From assembly GCF_026241195.1 (NCBI RefSeq), contig NZ_JAPFQO010000001.1, positions 248,001 through 312,000 on the forward strand: DNA of 64,000 bases, in the 5' to 3' direction. Each line of letters starts with the position of its first letter. Position 1 is the stretch's first letter. Under the pieces are notes generated by a model. The model was not told the origin of the DNA. It searched no databases and was given only the letters and a program-made list of their open reading frames with translations. This document shows positions 25,260 through 57,823 of this stretch, one piece after another. Source of the stretch: Pontibacter anaerobius (GTDB taxonomy: Bacteria; Bacteroidota; Bacteroidia; Cytophagales; Hymenobacteraceae). The position numbers and the translations under genes were made by a program.

Positions 25260-25291
25260 TTTGGTTTAGAAGAGAAAGCGATATACCTTTG
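25260..25291 (+). promoter_or_regulatory. Bacteroidota-type promoter of the TPP riboswitch/TonB receptor unit
   Basis: TTTG (25260-25263) and TACCTTTG (25284-25291) fit the -33 TTTG and -7 TAnnTTTG boxes, 20 bases apart. Transcription would begin near 25297, exactly at the edge of the riboswitch. Confidence 0.75.
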
Positions 25292-25294
25292 CCA

Positions 25295-25377
25295 GTACTC
25301 AGGGGTGCCCAAAGATTACGGGCTGAGATCATACCCATAGAACCTGATCCGGGTAATGCCGGCGAAGGGAGAGGTAC
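25295..25377 (+). ncRNA. TPP riboswitch (THI element)
   Basis: The closing stem GTACTC/GAGGTAC encloses GGGGTGCC, GGCTGAGATCATACCC, GAACCTGATCCGGGTAATGCC and GGCGAAGGGA, the invariant parts of the thiamine pyrophosphate aptamer in the right order. It sits 72 bases upstream of the TonB receptor ATG. TPP binding should switch the receptor off, either by termination or by hiding the start; I could not settle which. A G/C-rich stretch at 25392-25412 may be the expression platform. Confidence 0.96.
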
Positions 25378-25449
25378 GGGAAACAATTTTAGCGGGCTGC
25401 CGACCCCTGGCATGGCCGTATGTTTCACCATTTTCTTTTTCTATAACCA

Positions 25450-27882
25450 ATGAAAAGCTTTTTCACGGCACTGGCAGCCATCATACTGCCATTGCAACTG
25501 TTGGCGCAGCACACCCTGAGCGGGCGTGTGCGCAATGCCGACACAGGAGAGGCCCTGGCAGGTGCTACCGTAGTGCTGCAGGGCTCCAACACCGCTACCG
25601 CCACAGGCAGCGGCGGTACATTTTCTTTCCCCGATCTTCAGGCCGGGATTTATACTTTAAAAGTGACTTTCCTGGGCTTTGAGCAGCAGCAGGCAAGCGT
25701 AGACCTGCAGCAGGACGAGCAGGTGCAGATCGCGCTGAGGCCGCAGGCGTTGCAAACCGGCGAGGTGGTGGTGTCGGCCACGCGGGCCAGCGAGAAAACC
25801 GGTACCACCTTTACCAACGTTACCAAGCAGGAGATAGAAGATCGCAACTTTGGCCAGGACCTGCCTTACTTGCTGGAGCAGACGCCATCAGTGGTGGTGA
25901 ACTCCGATGCCGGCGCAGGCGTGGGCTACACGGGCATCCGCATCCGGGGCTCCGATATCACGCGCATCAACGTAACGGTAAACGGCATCCCGATAAACGA
26001 CTCGGAGAGCCACGGCACTTTCTTCGTGAATATGCCCGATCTGGCCTCTTCCATAGAGGATGTGCAGGTGCAGCGCGGGGTGGGCACCTCTACCAACGGA
26101 GCCGGAGCCTTCGGGGCAAGTCTGAATATCCGCACCATTGGCGTAAACCGCGAAGCCTACGCCGAGGCCGTGAATGCCTATGGCTCTTACAACACCTGGC
26201 GCCACTCGGTTTCTTTCGGTTCCGGCCTTATCAACGATAAGTTTACCGTAGATGGCCGCCTTTCCAAAATCTCTTCGGATGGCTACATCGACCGTGCCTT
26301 CTCCGACCTGAAATCATACTACCTGGCGGCGGGCTACCATGGCAAAACAGGTATGCTCAAGTTCGTGACTTTCTCGGGCAAGGAAAAAACCTACCAGGCC
26401 TGGAACGGCGTGCCGGAGGAGAAGCTGGAGACAGACCGCACTTTTAACTCCCTCACCTACGAGAACGAGACCGACAACTACCAGCAGGACCACTACCAGC
26501 TGCATTACTCCAAAGACCTGCTGCCGCGCCTGAACCTGGGCGGTGCCTTCCATTTTACCCGAGGCCGCGGCTACTACGAGCAGTACAAGTATAACCAGAA
26601 GCTGGCTAACTATAGCATTGCACCGGTTGTGCTGGGCGACACCACCATCAGCCGCTCCGACCTGATCCGCCAGAAGTGGCTCGATAACTATTTCTACGGT
26701 GCTACCTACGCCCTGAACTATACCGATGAGGCCGGTAAGCTGAACGCGACGCTTGGCGGCGCCTGGAACAAGTATGACGGCGACCATTACGGCGAGGTGA
26801 TCTGGGCCCGCTATGCCTCCGATAGCGAACTGGGCCAGCGCTACTACTTCAACAATGCCCTGAAGACGGACTTCAACATCTTTGGCAAAGTAAACTACCA
26901 GCTAACGGAGCGCCTGGGTGTGTTCGGTGATCTACAGTTTCGCACCATTGCCTATAGTATAGATGGCGTGGATGATGATAACCGTGATGTGACGCAGGAG
27001 GTAGATTTCAGCTTTGTAAACCCGAAGGCAGGTGTTACCTACGAGATTTCAGAAGGGCAGACTGCCTACGCCTCGTATGCCGTGGGCAACCGCGAGCCAA
27101 CCCGCTCTGACTTTACCGATAAGCCGCAGAACACACAGGCAGGCGCTGCCGATCCGGAGGCGGAAACGCTGTACAACCTGGAGGCAGGGTACCGCCTGCG
27201 CGGCGGCAGCCAAAGTATACTTGGGCAGGATACCCGCTATACTCTGGATGCCAACGTCTACTACATGGATTACGACAACCAACTGGTGCTTACCGGCCAA
27301 CTGAACGATGTGGGCTCGCCGCTGCGCACTAACATAAAGGACAGTTACCGCGCCGGGTTAGAACTGGCAGGAATGATCAATTTTAACGATGTGGTGGAGT
27401 TGAGCAGCACCGTTACCTTCAGCCGCAACAAGATCAAGAATTACACGGAGTACCTTTACGTGTATGATGCCGATTATAATGTAGAGGATGTGGTGGAGAC
27501 AAACTATAGCGAAACAGACATTTCCTTCTCGCCGGCCGTGGTGTCGGCGCACAAGCTGGAGGTGCAGCCGCTAAAGGGCTTCAGAGCCGCCATACTTTAC
27601 AAAACCGTAAGCGAGCAGTTCCTTGATAACACTGCCTCCGATGATCGCAAAATAGACGCGTACCAGGTAACTGACCTGCGCCTGCGCTATACTTTAAAGC
27701 CATCGTTTATGAAGGAGCTGGAGCTGGCGCTGCTGGTAAACAATCTCTTTAACCAAAAGTACGTGGCCAACGGCTATACCTGGAGCGAGCAGTACGTGGG
27801 CGACAACACCCGCTACGACTACAACTACTACTACCCGCAAGCCACCCGTAACTTCCTGGCCTCTGTGGGCCTCAGGTTTTAA
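25450..27882 (+). CDS. TonB-dependent receptor, probable thiamine uptake (OMR1-like)
   Basis: 810 residues. The signal peptide MKSFFTALAAIILPLQLLAQ is followed by a carboxypeptidase-regulatory-like domain (residues 22-105, HTLSGRVRNADTGEALAGAT), a plug domain (about 115-225, with GIRIRGSDITRINVTVNGIPINDSES) and a 22-strand barrel ending in the usual C-terminal Phe (FLASVGLRF). It imports a ligand through the outer membrane with TonB/ExbB/ExbD energy. The TPP riboswitch directly upstream is the basis for calling the ligand thiamine or a thiamine precursor. No TonB box could be defined with certainty. Confidence 0.93.
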   Translation: MKSFFTALAAIILPLQLLAQHTLSGRVRNADTGEALAGATVVLQGSNTATATGSGGTFSFPDLQAGIYTLKVTFLGFEQQQASVDLQQDEQVQIALRPQALQTGEVVVSATRASEKTGTTFTNVTKQEIEDRNFGQDLPYLLEQTPSVVVNSDAGAGVGYTGIRIRGSDITRINVTVNGIPINDSESHGTFFVNMPDLASSIEDVQVQRGVGTSTNGAGAFGASLNIRTIGVNREAYAEAVNAYGSYNTWRHSVSFGSGLINDKFTVDGRLSKISSDGYIDRAFSDLKSYYLAAGYHGKTGMLKFVTFSGKEKTYQAWNGVPEEKLETDRTFNSLTYENETDNYQQDHYQLHYSKDLLPRLNLGGAFHFTRGRGYYEQYKYNQKLANYSIAPVVLGDTTISRSDLIRQKWLDNYFYGATYALNYTDEAGKLNATLGGAWNKYDGDHYGEVIWARYASDSELGQRYYFNNALKTDFNIFGKVNYQLTERLGVFGDLQFRTIAYSIDGVDDDNRDVTQEVDFSFVNPKAGVTYEISEGQTAYASYAVGNREPTRSDFTDKPQNTQAGAADPEAETLYNLEAGYRLRGGSQSILGQDTRYTLDANVYYMDYDNQLVLTGQLNDVGSPLRTNIKDSYRAGLELAGMINFNDVVELSSTVTFSRNKIKNYTEYLYVYDADYNVEDVVETNYSETDISFSPAVVSAHKLEVQPLKGFRAAILYKTVSEQFLDNTASDDRKIDAYQVTDLRLRYTLKPSFMKELELALLVNNLFNQKYVANGYTWSEQYVGDNTRYDYNYYYPQATRNFLASVGLRF

Positions 27883-28092: not shown

Positions 28093-29271
28093 ATGGCTTA
28101 CGAATCTTCAGGTGCGCCTGATTACTTCAATATCGACGACCTGCTCACGGAAGAGCATTTGCTTATCCGCCAGACCATGCGCGACTTCGTGAAGCGCGAG
28201 ATCTCTCCTAAGATTGAGCAGTGGGCGCAGGACGCGCATTTCCCATCAGAGATTGTAAAGAAGTTTGGCGATGTGGGTGCCTTTGGCCCAACCATTCCGA
28301 CAGAGTATGGCGGCGGCGGCCTGGACTACATCAGCTACGGCATCATCATGCAGGAGATTGAGCGCGGCGATTCCGGCATGCGTTCTACTGCCTCTGTGCA
28401 AGGCTCTCTGGTAATGTACCCGATTTACAAGTATGGCTCGGAGGAGCAGCGCAATAAATACCTGCCAAAACTGGCCAGCGGCGAGTGGCTGGGCTGCTTC
28501 GGCCTCACGGAGCCGGACTTCGGCTCTAACCCAGGCGGTATGGTAACCAACATCAAGGACATGGGCGACCACTACCTGCTCAACGGCTCTAAAATGTGGA
28601 TCTCCAACTCTCCGGAGTGTCAGGTGGCTGTTGTATGGGCAAAGAATGAGGAAGGCCGCATTAAAGGCTTGATTGTGGAGCGCGGCATGGAAGGCTTTAC
28701 TACGCCAGAGATCCACAACAAGTGGAGCCTGCGCGCCAGCTGCACCGGCGAGCTGGTTTTCGATAACGTAAAGGTGCCGAAGGAGAACCTGTTGCCAAAC
28801 GTGGATGGTTTGCGCGGTCCGCTGGGTTGCCTCGACTCTGCCCGCTACGGTATTTCGTGGGGTGCCATCGGTGCCGCCATCGATTGCTACGAGTCGGCGC
28901 TGAAGTATAGCAAGGAGCGTATACAGTTCGATAAACCGATCGGCGGTTTCCAGCTGACGCAGAAAAAGCTTGCCGAGATGCTGACAGAAATTACTAAGGC
29001 GCAGCTGATGGTATGGCGCTTAGGCACGCTGATGAACGAAGGCAAAGCCACAACGCAGCAGATATCCATGGCGAAGCGCAACAGCGTAGACATGGCCCTG
29101 CACATTGCCCGCGAGGCGCGCCAGATCCACGGCGGCATGGGTATTACCGGCGAGTACCCCATCATGCGCCACATGATGAACCTTGAGTCGGTTATCACCT
29201 ACGAGGGTACACACGATATTCATCTGCTGATTACGGGCGCGGATATTACAGGTATTCAGGCGTTTAAATAA
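28093..29271 (+). CDS. gcdH: Acyl-CoA dehydrogenase, glutaryl-CoA dehydrogenase-like
   Basis: 392 residues of the acyl-CoA dehydrogenase fold. CFGLTEPDFGSNPGGM is the FAD/substrate signature, KMWISNSPECQVAVVWAK follows, and QIHGGMGITGEYPIMRHMMN with ITYEGTHDIHLLI at the C-terminus contains the catalytic Glu. The sequence context around these motifs is that of glutaryl-CoA dehydrogenases, which oxidise and decarboxylate glutaryl-CoA to crotonyl-CoA in lysine and tryptophan breakdown. The gene stands alone, so the pathway is not confirmed by neighbours. Transcription probably starts from a TAnnTTTG box. Confidence 0.9.
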   Translation: MAYESSGAPDYFNIDDLLTEEHLLIRQTMRDFVKREISPKIEQWAQDAHFPSEIVKKFGDVGAFGPTIPTEYGGGGLDYISYGIIMQEIERGDSGMRSTASVQGSLVMYPIYKYGSEEQRNKYLPKLASGEWLGCFGLTEPDFGSNPGGMVTNIKDMGDHYLLNGSKMWISNSPECQVAVVWAKNEEGRIKGLIVERGMEGFTTPEIHNKWSLRASCTGELVFDNVKVPKENLLPNVDGLRGPLGCLDSARYGISWGAIGAAIDCYESALKYSKERIQFDKPIGGFQLTQKKLAEMLTEITKAQLMVWRLGTLMNEGKATTQQISMAKRNSVDMALHIAREARQIHGGMGITGEYPIMRHMMNLESVITYEGTHDIHLLITGADITGIQAFK

Positions 29272-29489: not shown

Positions 29490-29595
29490 TGGCGCGAGCG
29501 TCCTCGCTCGTGTCGAAGTATAGTTTGGGCCTCTGGCCCAGTTGAGTCAGAGACTCAACCTTATTTGTTAGTCACGAATCTGGAGATTCGCGCCA
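29490..29595. repeat. Array of four short hairpins bounded by TGGCGCGA/TCGCGCCA
   Basis: The ends TGGCGCGA (29490-29497) and TCGCGCCA (29588-29595) are inverted copies. Inside lie CGAGCG/CGCTCG (29495-29510), TGGGCC-TCT-GGCCCA (29526-29540), GTTGAGTC-AGA-GACTCAAC (29541-29559) and CGAATCT-GG-AGATTCG (29575-29590). Each stem has a different sequence. Related arrays lie at 39744-39812 and 57803-57823. Confidence 0.75.
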
Positions 29596-29670
29596 GAAAG
29601 TGGGGAACTTAACAGCCCTGCCTCTATGGAGGGGCTACGGTTAGGGCACAAAAATAAACCGTTCAACCTA

Positions 29671-29801
29671 CCGCGAGCTTTCAACTCGTGGTTGTCCAGG
29701 GCAGCGAGCTTTCAACTAGTGTTAGCCAAATTACCGCTCAGTTCAGGCCTTCACAAGCTGAAAGCTTGCCTCATAGAAAGCCACAAGTTGAAAACTTGCG
29801 G
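29671..29801. repeat. Cluster of REP-like palindromes with fixed GAA/TTC loop
   Basis: Units are CCGCGAG...CTCGTGG (29671-29691), a partial unit at 29704-29720, CAAGCT-GAA-AGCTTG (29754-29768) and CCACAAGTT-GAA-AACTTGCGG (29781-29801). The stems differ but stay paired. A 70-residue frame across them (29626-29838) is not a gene. Confidence 0.75.
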
Positions 29802-29866
29802 CAGAACGAACTTGTGTCTTAACTGTAGCTTTCGATGAGTAGGGGGAAGTTTACATCTTAGAACAA

Positions 29867-30057: not shown

Positions 30058-31101
30058 ATGAGAGAAGATTATCTCACCGGCGAAAACGACTACATGACGC
30101 CGGCCGAAAAGGACATAGACAAGGCCCTCCGCCCGCTTAGTTTCCGCGACTTTACCGGTCAGGACAAGGTGGTGGAGAACCTGAAGATATTTGTGCAGGC
30201 GGCCAAGCGCCGCGGCGAGGCCCTGGACCACGTACTGCTGCACGGCCCTCCAGGCTTGGGTAAGACCACACTCTCGCACATTATTGCCTCCGAGCTGGAT
30301 GCAGGTATAAAAATGACTTCCGGCCCGGTGCTAGACAAGCCAAGCGACCTCGCAGGCCTGCTGACAAACCTGGAGGCCAACGATGTGCTGTTTATCGACG
30401 AGATTCACCGCCTGAACCCGATTGTGGAAGAGTACCTGTACTCGGCCATGGAAGACTACAAGATCGACATTATGCTTGACTCTGGTCCGAATGCCCGCTC
30501 GGTGCAAATCAGCCTGAACCCGTTTACGTTGATCGGGGCCACCACGCGCTCCGGTTTACTCACGGCGCCGTTGCGTGCCCGTTTCAGCATTAACTCGCGC
30601 CTGGAGTACTACGATGCCGAGTTACTGCGATCTATCGTAAAGCGCTCTTCCTTTTTGCTTGGAGCGCCGATACATGAGGATGCGGCCTTTGAGATTGCCC
30701 GCCGCAGCCGCGGCACGCCGCGTATCGCCAACAACCTGCTGCGCCGCACCCGCGACTTCGCACAGGTAAAAGGCGACGGCACTATTACAGTGGACATAGC
30801 TAAATTCGCCCTGAACGCCCTGGACGTAGACCACAACGGCCTCGATGATATGGACAACAGAATCCTGAACACCATTATCGACAAGTTTAAAGGCGGCCCG
30901 GTAGGAATTACCACCATCGCCACGGCTTGTGGTGAGGAGTCAGAAACGATCGAGGAAGTATATGAGCCATTCCTGATCCAGGAGGGCTACATAAAGCGCA
31001 CCGCCCGCGGCCGTGAGGCTACCGAGATGGCTTACCGCCACCTGGGCAAGATTCCGCCGCAGGAGATTGCATCTGGCGGCTTATTTAACCAGCCGGAATA
31101 A
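30058..31101 (+). CDS. ruvB: Holliday junction branch-migration ATPase RuvB
   Basis: 347 residues. It opens with the RuvB N-terminus ([21 protein letters not shown]); Walker [11 protein letters not shown] is near residues 63-72, Walker [11 protein letters not shown] near 110-119, [16 protein letters not shown] (sensor 1 and arginine finger region) near 160-176, and the C-terminal winged helix includes [16 protein letters not shown]. With RuvA and RuvC it drives and resolves Holliday junctions. It stands alone with its own terminator; ruvA/ruvC are not nearby, as is common in Bacteroidota. Confidence 0.98.
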
Positions 31102-31153: not shown

Positions 31154-31232
31154 CTTTTACCCCTCTACAGCCCTTACCGTTTGGGCACATTTTGTTCCTG
31201 CCGCAGGATTGCATCTTGTGGCTTTTAATGAG

Positions 31233-31323
31233 GCAAGCTTTCAGCTTGCGAAAGTATAAACTGGGCAGCCAACGCAAGCTGAAAGCTTGCCGTCTTGAGA
31301 ATCCACGAGTTGAAAACTCGCGG
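31233..31323. repeat. Second cluster of GAA/TTC-loop palindromes
   Basis: GCAAGCT-TTC-AGCTTGC (31233-31249), GCAAGCT-GAA-AGCTTGC (31274-31290) and CCACGAGTT-GAA-AACTCGCGG (31303-31323). Same design as 29671-29801. They fill the spacer between ruvB and queG (31102-31483). Confidence 0.75.
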
Positions 31324-31440
31324 TAGGTTGTGATGTGGACAGGGATGTCCGAAACAGCTGCAGTGGAGCCTGTGCAGCTACTGCACGATCATACAAATCA
31401 TTAAAATCCCCATTAATCACCGGTTGGATTTATTTTGCCT

Positions 31441-39743: not shown

Positions 39744-39812
39744 TGGCGCAAGTCTTCTAACTTGTATCTTACAATGATGTTGAGTTTGTAACTCAACTGG
39801 CTCGCAGAGCCA
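39744..39812. repeat. Hairpin array beginning TGGCGC
   Basis: CAAGT-CTTCTA-ACTTG (39749-39764), GTTGAGTT-TGT-AACTCAAC (39779-39797) and TGGCTC-GCA-GAGCCA (39798-39812), entered through TGGCGC at 39744. Same type as 29490-29595. Confidence 0.7.
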
Positions 39813-39860
39813 TACTTTGGCTATACTTTTATACTTGCCGATTTATACTTCCATAGTCTT

Positions 39861-40135
39861 GGCTTCCTTCAGTTTGAACCTAGCTATACTTACTAGCCTC
39901 CGTTCACCCTCAGTCTTACCAATCTATTGTTCCATCTCCGGCTTTGGCTCCCTCTAGCCCGGGAGGGCTCGTCTTCCCGCATCGCGCTGTGTTCCCTCCT
40001 TGCCTTGCTCTCGCTCAGCATGCCCTAAACGGGCACCGGATCTCACAAGGCGCTCAACGGAAAGACTGGGATCAGCTCGATAGCCTCGGCTGACGGAGCT
40101 GGAACTAAGTCCCCTTCGAAGGGGGCAGGGGGATG
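39861..40135 (+). repeat. Copy B of the ~300-bp dispersed element
   Basis: It matches copy A (9121-9407), with a 34-base block at 39956-39989 and a 24-base block at 40048-40071 that look identical, and a different middle part containing GCCCTAAACGGGC. It ends in a CCCCTTCGAAGGGG palindrome. A 106-residue minus frame here (39954-40274) is a by-product of the element. The rest of the 39666-40332 spacer is the terminators, the hairpin array and AAGTATA words. Confidence 0.8.
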
Positions 40136-50671: not shown

Positions 50672-50702
50672 CTCAATTGCTTTCAAACTAGCTTATACCT
50701 GT

Positions 50703-50867
50703 CGCAAGTTTAGCGCAGCGTAACTTGTGGCTAAGTGTGGCAGCAGTTTTCAACTGCTTTGCTTTGAAAAAGCAAGTCTTACAGCGGCTGTAGCCATACT
50801 ATATATTCTAATAAAGTATAAGCTCATATAAAGTATAGCCATAAGTTACATTGCGCTAAACTTGCGG
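50703..50867. repeat. Repeat cluster with AAGTTTAGCG palindromes
   Basis: CGCAAGTTTAGCG...CGTAACTTGTGG (50703-50730), GCAGTT-TTC-AACTGC (50743-50757) and the reverse copy CCATAAGTTACA...TAAACTTGCGG (50839-50867) occur here. This 262-base spacer (50672-50933) also has six AAGTATA/TATACTT words and no ORF. Confidence 0.7.
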
Positions 50868-50877
50868 CATACAAAAC

Positions 50878-57418: not shown

Positions 57419-57725
57419 ACCACCCCTAACCCCTCCTTATCCAAGGAGGGGAGTTCAGCTGAAGCTCTGTCAGCAATGGCTATTGAACCTGATTCCAGTC
57501 TTTTCGTGGGGGTAGGGGCCCTCGACAAAGAGCGCCTTGTGAGATTCGGTGCCCGTCAAGGGCAGCCGTAGCGCAGCGGAGGCAGGAGGGAACACAGCGC
57601 GATGCGGGAAGACGAGGCCTCCCGGCCTTGAGGGCGCCAAAGCTAGAAGTGAAACATTAGGTTTGTAAGGCTGTGGATGAAAGACAGCTAAAAAAGATAG
57701 CTTTTTTCAAGTTTAAGAAAGCAGT
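57419..57725 (-). repeat. Copy C of the ~300-bp dispersed element, with C/G-rich module
   Basis: Reverse-oriented relative of copies A and B. On the plus strand CAGCGCGATGCGGGAAGACG (57596-57615) and AAGAGCGCCTTGTGAGATTC match them in reverse. At 57419-57454 it carries the CACCCCTAACCCCTCC module, and at 57686-57706 AGCTAAAAAAGATAGCT followed by T. It fills most of the 57263-57861 spacer; no gene lies there. Confidence 0.75.
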
Positions 57726-57802
57726 GGTTAAAACACAGTTTAAGTATAGAGTATAGCTTTCCAAGACAGTCGAATTACAAGCTCAACGTCATCATAGGAC
57801 AC

Positions 57803-57823
57803 AAGTCTGAAGACTCGCGCCAG
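57803..57823. repeat. Single TGGCGC-type hairpin
   Basis: AAGTCT-GA-AGACTCGCGCCAG: the stem AGTCT/AGACT (57804-57815) ends in CGCGCCA, like the hairpin arrays at 29490 and 39744. Confidence 0.6.

Follow-up and report, generated by a model that had tools for sequence, protein, structure and literature searches.

What kind of element are the four hairpins of unlike stem sequence that lie between inverted ends at positions 29490-29595 of a 64,000-nucleotide stretch of the Pontibacter anaerobius genome (the window), and what sets the sequence of their stems? The array is 106 bp long, begins with TGGCGCGA at 29490, finishes with TCGCGCCA at 29595, and is bounded by genes at 28093-29271 and 30058-31101, which we take to be an acyl-CoA dehydrogenase (ACAD) gene and ruvB. 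Four hairpins are predicted in it, at 29490-29514, 29526-29540, 29541-29559 and 29571-29595. The folding energy of the array with DNA parameters is -27.5 kcal/mol, whereas shuffled sequences average -12.7 (z -6.3), and 0 of 200 shuffles fold as low. The array is confirmed as a genuine structure. All four hairpins of what the initial annotation had called a tandem series do fold, but the plan is really that of two double-hairpin ends inverted to each other, in each of which about 11 bases separate an outer hairpin (TGGCGC-stem-loop-stem'-GTGNC) from an inner one. On the plus strand, the left end has its outer hairpin at 29490-29514 (TGGCGC frame, stem GAGCG, loop TCCT, tail GTGTC) and its inner hairpin at 29526-29540 (stem TGGGCC, loop TCT). 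The right end lies on the minus strand, with the inner hairpin at 29541-29559 (stem GTTGAGTC, reading TTGAGTC on the minus strand, and a loop of three bases) and the outer hairpin at 29571-29595 (TGGCGC frame, stem GAATC, loop TCCA, tail GTGAC).

To see how far this plan is shared, we built a covariance model of one such end, or half-unit, from 12 hand-picked units, all carrying a G.T mismatch. The genome of P. anaerobius holds at least 150 half-units at E <= 0.0011 (the best 150 of 1365 first-look candidates were scored), so the likeness between half-units is not due to chance; 149 of the 150 listed were parsed, one on C17 being left out. The copies have in common an outer-hairpin frame, TG[GC]CGC-stem-loop-stem'-GTGNC, within which the apical stem varies. 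At one place in the lower stem, G stands opposite T in 138 of 146 parsed copies, a count that leans toward G.T because the model was trained on units that all carry it, and a Watson-Crick G-C pair is found there in 0 of 146. These figures come from a parse without tail bonus, which left out the 3 of 149 copies having fewer than four of five apical pairs; an earlier parse that rewarded GTG tails gave 141 of 149. At least four of the five apical pairs form in 146 of 149 copies, and all five in 116, rates that lean upward because stems were picked for best pairing in both parses. The expectation that the stem types come from a small set was borne out: 29 different five-base arms occur in the 146 copies, and the eight commonest account for 118 of them.

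In a 12-row alignment, both partners have changed in 13 of 17 pairs and 97.5% of the cells are paired, which rules out a decayed single repeat, as the initial annotation had also suggested. Sliding the partners lowers pairing to 25-44%, a control that flatters the alignment because both the structure and the alignment were drawn by hand from the same sequences. The mismatch would be A.C on the opposite strand, where the right-end hairpin folds at -4.3 kcal/mol against -6.1 on the frame strand, so one strand appears to be marked. Directly before the frame, the commonest three letters are TTC (63 of 149) and TGC (18), and they differ with stem type; GT[AG]G, the canonical REP foot, stands directly 5' of the frame in 0 of 149 copies and occurs in 2 of 149 within the 8-base flank plus the first three bases of the frame. 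Could the four hairpins nevertheless be unrelated repeats that happen to be neighbours? Their stem letters do differ, but the frame, spacing and pairing are common to at least 150 half-units, which refutes this idea, and the window's pairing of left and right ends recurs twice in genome G006 (L283 and L288). The idea is almost certainly false, and the common boundary postulated at the outset is clearly present as the TG[GC]CGC frame.

Ten half-unit matches at E <= 1 were returned when the whole window was scanned with the covariance model. Close to the array, a half-unit at 29754-29803 on the minus strand is a TGCCGC variant with stem AAGTT and tail GTGGC (50.3 bits), with a weak partner at 29669-29720 on the plus strand (15.8 bits). 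An inverted pair lies at 31199-31248 (plus, 39.8 bits) and 31274-31325 (minus, 36.0 bits), and a weaker pair of a long-loop variant at 50700-50758 (plus, 28.4 bits) and 50819-50869 (minus, 13.2 bits). The initial annotation had read the locus at 39744 as a shorter relative of the array and that at 57803 as a single unit. Both readings fail, each locus being a complete two-hairpin end of a long mosaic repeat: the half-unit at 39744-39796 on the plus strand (67.7 bits) belongs to a long-repeat match at 39744-40085, and that at 57770-57822 on the minus strand (59.5 bits) to a match at 57474-57822. Further copies of the long repeat are found at L039:1501-2323, L052:1501-2094 and L072:501-1176. It has the same hairpin ends, with other hairpin families nested within, including a GGACATCC-type hairpin as found beside the RAYT gene at L009. 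The 823-base copy at L039 is matched somewhere by 102 of the 121 stretches examined, and over at least half of its length by 49 of them. At 39744-39796 and at L052:1501-1570, a third hairpin (TGGCTC...GAGCCA) follows the inner hairpin, at the place of the TGGGCC hairpin of the short element, as if the short element had given rise to the long repeat. Among known Rfam families at gathering thresholds, positions 25000-60000 returned only a TPP riboswitch, which lies at 25291-25387 (68.2 bits), upstream of an ORF at 25450-27882.

Beyond this genome, a plain DNA search with the window's array gave matches in 17 of 18 other members of the genus and in 0 of 10 members of other families. The covariance model found half-units in 19 of 19 Pontibacter genomes, 1 to 149 in each, and, with stricter filters, in 15 of the 78 genomes examined from the rest of the order, two of these in the same family. 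Among the loci examined, 32 distinct short inverted pairs were collected.

The initial annotation had pointed to a Y1 (RAYT) transposase as a possible partner of the repeat, and the genome does contain seven Y1_Tnp matches, six of them above the Pfam cut-off and several flanked by the same frame. One of them, L014, has the window's left end on both sides, inverted, around a gene split into two frames; such inverted ends also flank its intact relatives L157 and L165, which belong to two other species. The three RAYTs submitted to the profile models all passed Y1_Tnp and the NCBIfam REP_Tyr_transpos cut-off, and all three scored 18.2-26.4 bits with the NCBIfam IS200 model, below its cut-off of 55, which rules out IS200/IS605 proper. 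Of the 30 RAYT ORFs (34 loci), 24 are of 176-182 aa or near, the others being of 149-206 aa apart from three, of 126, 126 and 287 aa. They carry [NS]H[LVA]H and Y[IL][HEN][NQR]NP-like motifs, the first letter being S instead of N in some clades.

All 55 Y1 matches were taken into the locus set in the end. The frame lies within 300 bp of the RAYT gene in 23 of 29 Pontibacter loci; the 17,400 bases this near to a gene hold 38 copies, and 42,194 more distant bases hold 1. Outside Pontibacter, 8 of 21 loci, from Chryseobacterium, Epilithonimonas, Aequorivita, Gelidibacter and a Balneolaceae assembly, have it and 13 do not (19 copies within 15,706 near bases, 0 within 31,153 more distant ones; shuffles 0.005). 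When GTG was not required after the stem, it was still GTG in 29 of 30 cases in Pontibacter and in 19 of 24 in the others; at two Saprospiraceae loci, GCG or GCA stands in its place, and these loci lack the G.T. Hairpins stand on both sides of the gene at part of the loci only, and RAYT clades 1 and 2 have the stems without the frame, apart from one neighbouring copy. Across the 19 genomes, the number of half-units correlates with that of Y1 matches (Spearman 0.81, with kinship uncorrected and two counts to be read as lower bounds). The relation has exceptions: half-units (1 to 31) occur in five of the 19 without any Y1 match, and in G003 three Y1 matches go with two half-units.

The repeat is a RAYT-linked mosaic hairpin of Bacteroidota type, of an ordinary kind with an unusual anatomy, and the array is probably a non-autonomous BIME/REPIN-like mobile repeat served in trans by Bacteroidota-type RAYTs (Y1/HuH). 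In such a scheme, the outer hairpin would fold on one strand when the DNA is single-stranded, and the lower stem GGCGC/GTGNC with its G.T (A.C on the opposite strand) would offer a common grip and a strand mark. The apical stem and loop would distinguish one RAYT from another, and the enzyme would cut near the foot of the hairpin, the segment between two inverted ends being moved or copied.

Mobility can be followed by comparing sites between species. At the L002 site, the flanks enclose no element in five species and one element in G000; in G004 they enclose a different one, turned the other way, which, as judged from the sequences, is an independent insertion. Extra unmatched flank bases are present at this site, and no clear target duplication, such as would mark a MITE of a DDE element if its length were fixed, was seen there by eye. 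In G012, G013 and G014 (L198, L193 and L194), about 400 bases of another insert, resembling by eye a small gene, replace the hairpin element. At the level of the genomes compared, the insertion of such elements is shown by this between-species comparison. The ACAD-ruvB interval is 789 bp long here but 218-232 bp in each of four species, and it holds other arrays in G006, G012 and G014 and one weaker match in G018. Comparison between species gave neither a clean junction nor a target duplication at the window site; no clean junction could be read because the interval holds further extra DNA.

Another explanation could be that the repeats derive from RAYTs but that their dispersal is past, the pairing now being kept for a role in RNA, as a terminator or as a protection of mRNA 3' ends. 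Functions of this kind are stated for REPs in PMC3733652, and 143 of the 149 half-units lie outside ORFs of at least 120 aa, compared with 381 of 745 random positions from the same stretches. However, the presence of the element differs between species, and sister species without the array keep, by eye, the hairpin-plus-T-run of the upstream gene itself, which also rules out a plain terminator at the window site. A role in RNA would moreover leave the relation of stems to RAYT clades, described below, without explanation, and we consider this reading unlikely.

We then asked whether the stems vary with the transposase. RAYT proteins formed nine groups (clades) at the cut used. The typical apical stem is GGATT for clade 1, GGACA or GGATT for clade 2, GAGTC for clade 3, GAGTC or GAATC for clade 4, GAGCG with GGGCC for clade 5, GAGCT for clade 6, AAGCT, GAGCT or CAGCT for clade 8, and CAGTT for clade 9, while the two members of clade 7 have only AAGCG frame hairpins in common. 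As stems are shared by clades 1/2, 3/4 and 6/8, they are typical of a clade and not always unique to it. In the window's array, the left end is of clade-5 type, GGGCC inner hairpins flanking RAYTs of clade 5 as its outer hairpin does. The right end has an outer stem, GAATC, of clade-4 type, such as flanks the clade-4 RAYTs L168, L261 and L265, and an inner stem, GAGTC, of clade-3/4 type.

Stem similarity rises with RAYT protein identity (Mantel r 0.55, reached in 0 of 2000 permutations, n=28), in a set of 29 proteins from 34 RAYT loci, 28 of them with stems and L014 represented by its N-terminal frame alone. Similarity is 0.88 between RAYTs of the same clade in different genomes (34 pairs) and 0.51 between RAYTs of different clades in one genome (27 pairs). 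Part of this link is the descent of whole loci, since the flanks of orthologs are inherited together. Of 11 newly added intact RAYTs that share 65% identity or more across 140 aa or more, 10 have an expected stem; the exception, L267, bears the paired variant GAGCC/AGGCC. Over all 27 loci of this check, 15 reach the same identity and length; 13 of these have an expected stem, including L014, which helped to define its own set, and L267 and L167 do not. None of the 12 diverged or short loci carried one. The expected sets were drawn up after the first batch had been viewed, and those of clades 1/2, 3/4 and 6/8 overlap. Judged from these loci, the stem type tends to follow the RAYT clade across species.

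Could stems instead change by template switching within the hairpins (quasi-palindrome correction), the transposase having no part in their choice? Such a process would yield well-paired stems of changing sequence, and paired changes are indeed seen at sites that look orthologous by eye from their neighbour letters: several hairpins read GGACA/GGACG at L009 and GGATT/GGACT at L156, and at L013, L159 and L163 the outer stem differs around a constant inner stem. Template switching should, however, also repair the G.T mismatch, which is kept in most copies and never replaced by G-C (by a model that leans toward G.T), and, being local, it does not give one stem to several hairpins of a single RAYT, as is observed. 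We regard it as quite improbable as the source of the stems. As for the modular exchange of stems proposed initially, what stands is paired substitution in a fixed frame together with unlike ends; a recombinational swap is possible at most.

The two unlike ends of the array recur in other short elements. We examined 23 distinct ones with a GAGCG-type end (A). The other end differs in 21 (GGGTT in 7, GGATC, GAATC, GAGTT and GGGAA in 3 each, and AAGTT in 2) and is the same in 2, numbers that are not a frequency because most loci were chosen for resembling the window's left end, and the two A-A loci deliberately. In a pattern search, 7 of 19 genomes together gave 46 A-plus-other sites, and 5 of 19 gave 7 A-A sites with a stricter pattern; reversed-pattern controls gave 0 in both cases. 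In G006, where the window's pairing recurs, the RAYT L168 bears GAATC stems. Whether unlike ends go with particular RAYTs was looked at over the 19 genomes: the presence of a clade-5 RAYT does not predict A-plus-other elements (p 0.62), and among ten exploratory tests, too many for so few genomes, clade 3 gave p 0.009, clades 3 or 4 gave p 0.006, and the others p >= 0.12.

The ends could be unlike only because like ends form a long palindrome that the cell removes, in which case they say nothing of the choice of transposase. Clearance of palindromes is an equally simple reason for unlike ends. It was proposed for REP heterodimers in PMC3733652, and it agrees with the greater length of the two A-A elements (122 and 124 bp, the 21 A-plus-other elements measuring 99-106 bp) and with the smaller number of A-A sites, although the A-A pattern is the stricter one. 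Nevertheless, at five RAYT loci of Chryseobacterium and Epilithonimonas, the stem is GAGCT upstream and GAGCG downstream, with the unlike ends a gene apart, where clearance would be less needed. RAYT genes with different stems upstream and downstream suggest that unlike ends may be a normal substrate. We lean only slightly against palindrome removal as the whole explanation.

Returning to the RAYT-served mobile repeat, a bolder reading, which we consider clearly less likely than not, is that the apical stem is an exchangeable address on a fixed, obligatory-G.T frame, the frame being the common grip of subclass-2.6 RAYTs in Pontibacter and several Flavobacteria-type genera. The five-base stem would then set which RAYT acts, and a short element that keeps one end and changes the other stem could let a repeat population switch transposase.

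How does this repeat compare with known systems? The nearest is RAYT/TnpA_REP subclass 2.6 (Bertels group 5), to which PMC6006769 assigns proteins chiefly from Bacteroidetes that carry NH[LIV]H and YIH[QN]NP. Atypical structures lacking GT[AG]G, with copies elsewhere in the genome, lie on the flanks of their genes. The RAYTs studied here resemble this subclass in their occurrence in Bacteroidota, their size of about 180 aa, their motifs, and their flanking hairpins without GT[AG]G and with copies elsewhere. In that work the hairpins were found by manual inspection, and the description there offers no consensus; the fixed G.T frame, the double-hairpin ends and the stems that follow the RAYT clade go beyond its description. 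Like the gammaproteobacterial REP/BIME/REPIN and RAYT systems (PMC2817692, PMC3686654, PMC8266576), the present repeats form intergenic inverted pairs, and the RAYT is flanked by its own hairpins; unlike gammaproteobacterial REPs, they have no GT[AG]G foot, have two hairpins per end, and short elements usually have unlike ends. The paired stem changes at L009/L156 and L013/L159/L163 resemble the 'orthoswitch' reported in PMC3686654, a paired stem change at orthologous RAYTs of Pseudomonas and Stenotrophomonas, and the account in PMC8266576 has E. coli REP depend on stem mismatch and on strand.

CGTC-tagged palindromic repeats (PMC3733652) likewise occur as dimers of hairpins, heterodimers among them, with TGTC at the end of some, and are reported from Bacteroidetes too; they are described there with stems of 8-9 bp starting with A-T and with no transposase link recorded. 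Here, in contrast, the lower stem is mismatched, with an apical stem of five pairs above it, and the repeat is carried by RAYTs, so that its stems and its RAYT link rule out a CGTC-tagged repeat. With IS200/IS605, the repeat has in common the Y1 transposase fold and subterminal hairpins; its ends, however, are inverted copies, and the three RAYTs stay under the IS200 cut-off. In the open literature on REP/RAYT together with Bacteroidetes, Pontibacter, Flavobacterium or Chryseobacterium (the 2017 survey of RAYT groups was outside this scope), we found no description of this frame or stem code, and the sole mention of Chryseobacterium in the text of PMC2817692 concerns resistant soil isolates. 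A defined frame and stem code would allow these repeats to be searched by machine in Bacteroidota. The natural sets of RAYTs and stems make it possible to ask how a hairpin-reading transposase selects its DNA, and why the ends of many REP pairs differ, a fact that according to PMC3733652 has no obvious explanation.

Finally, the commonest stem in the window's genome is AAGTC with loop ttca. The diverged Y1 protein of L145 (G008), 56% identical to clade 9, has flanks with AAGTC-ttca hairpins, which makes it a candidate partner of that subfamily.
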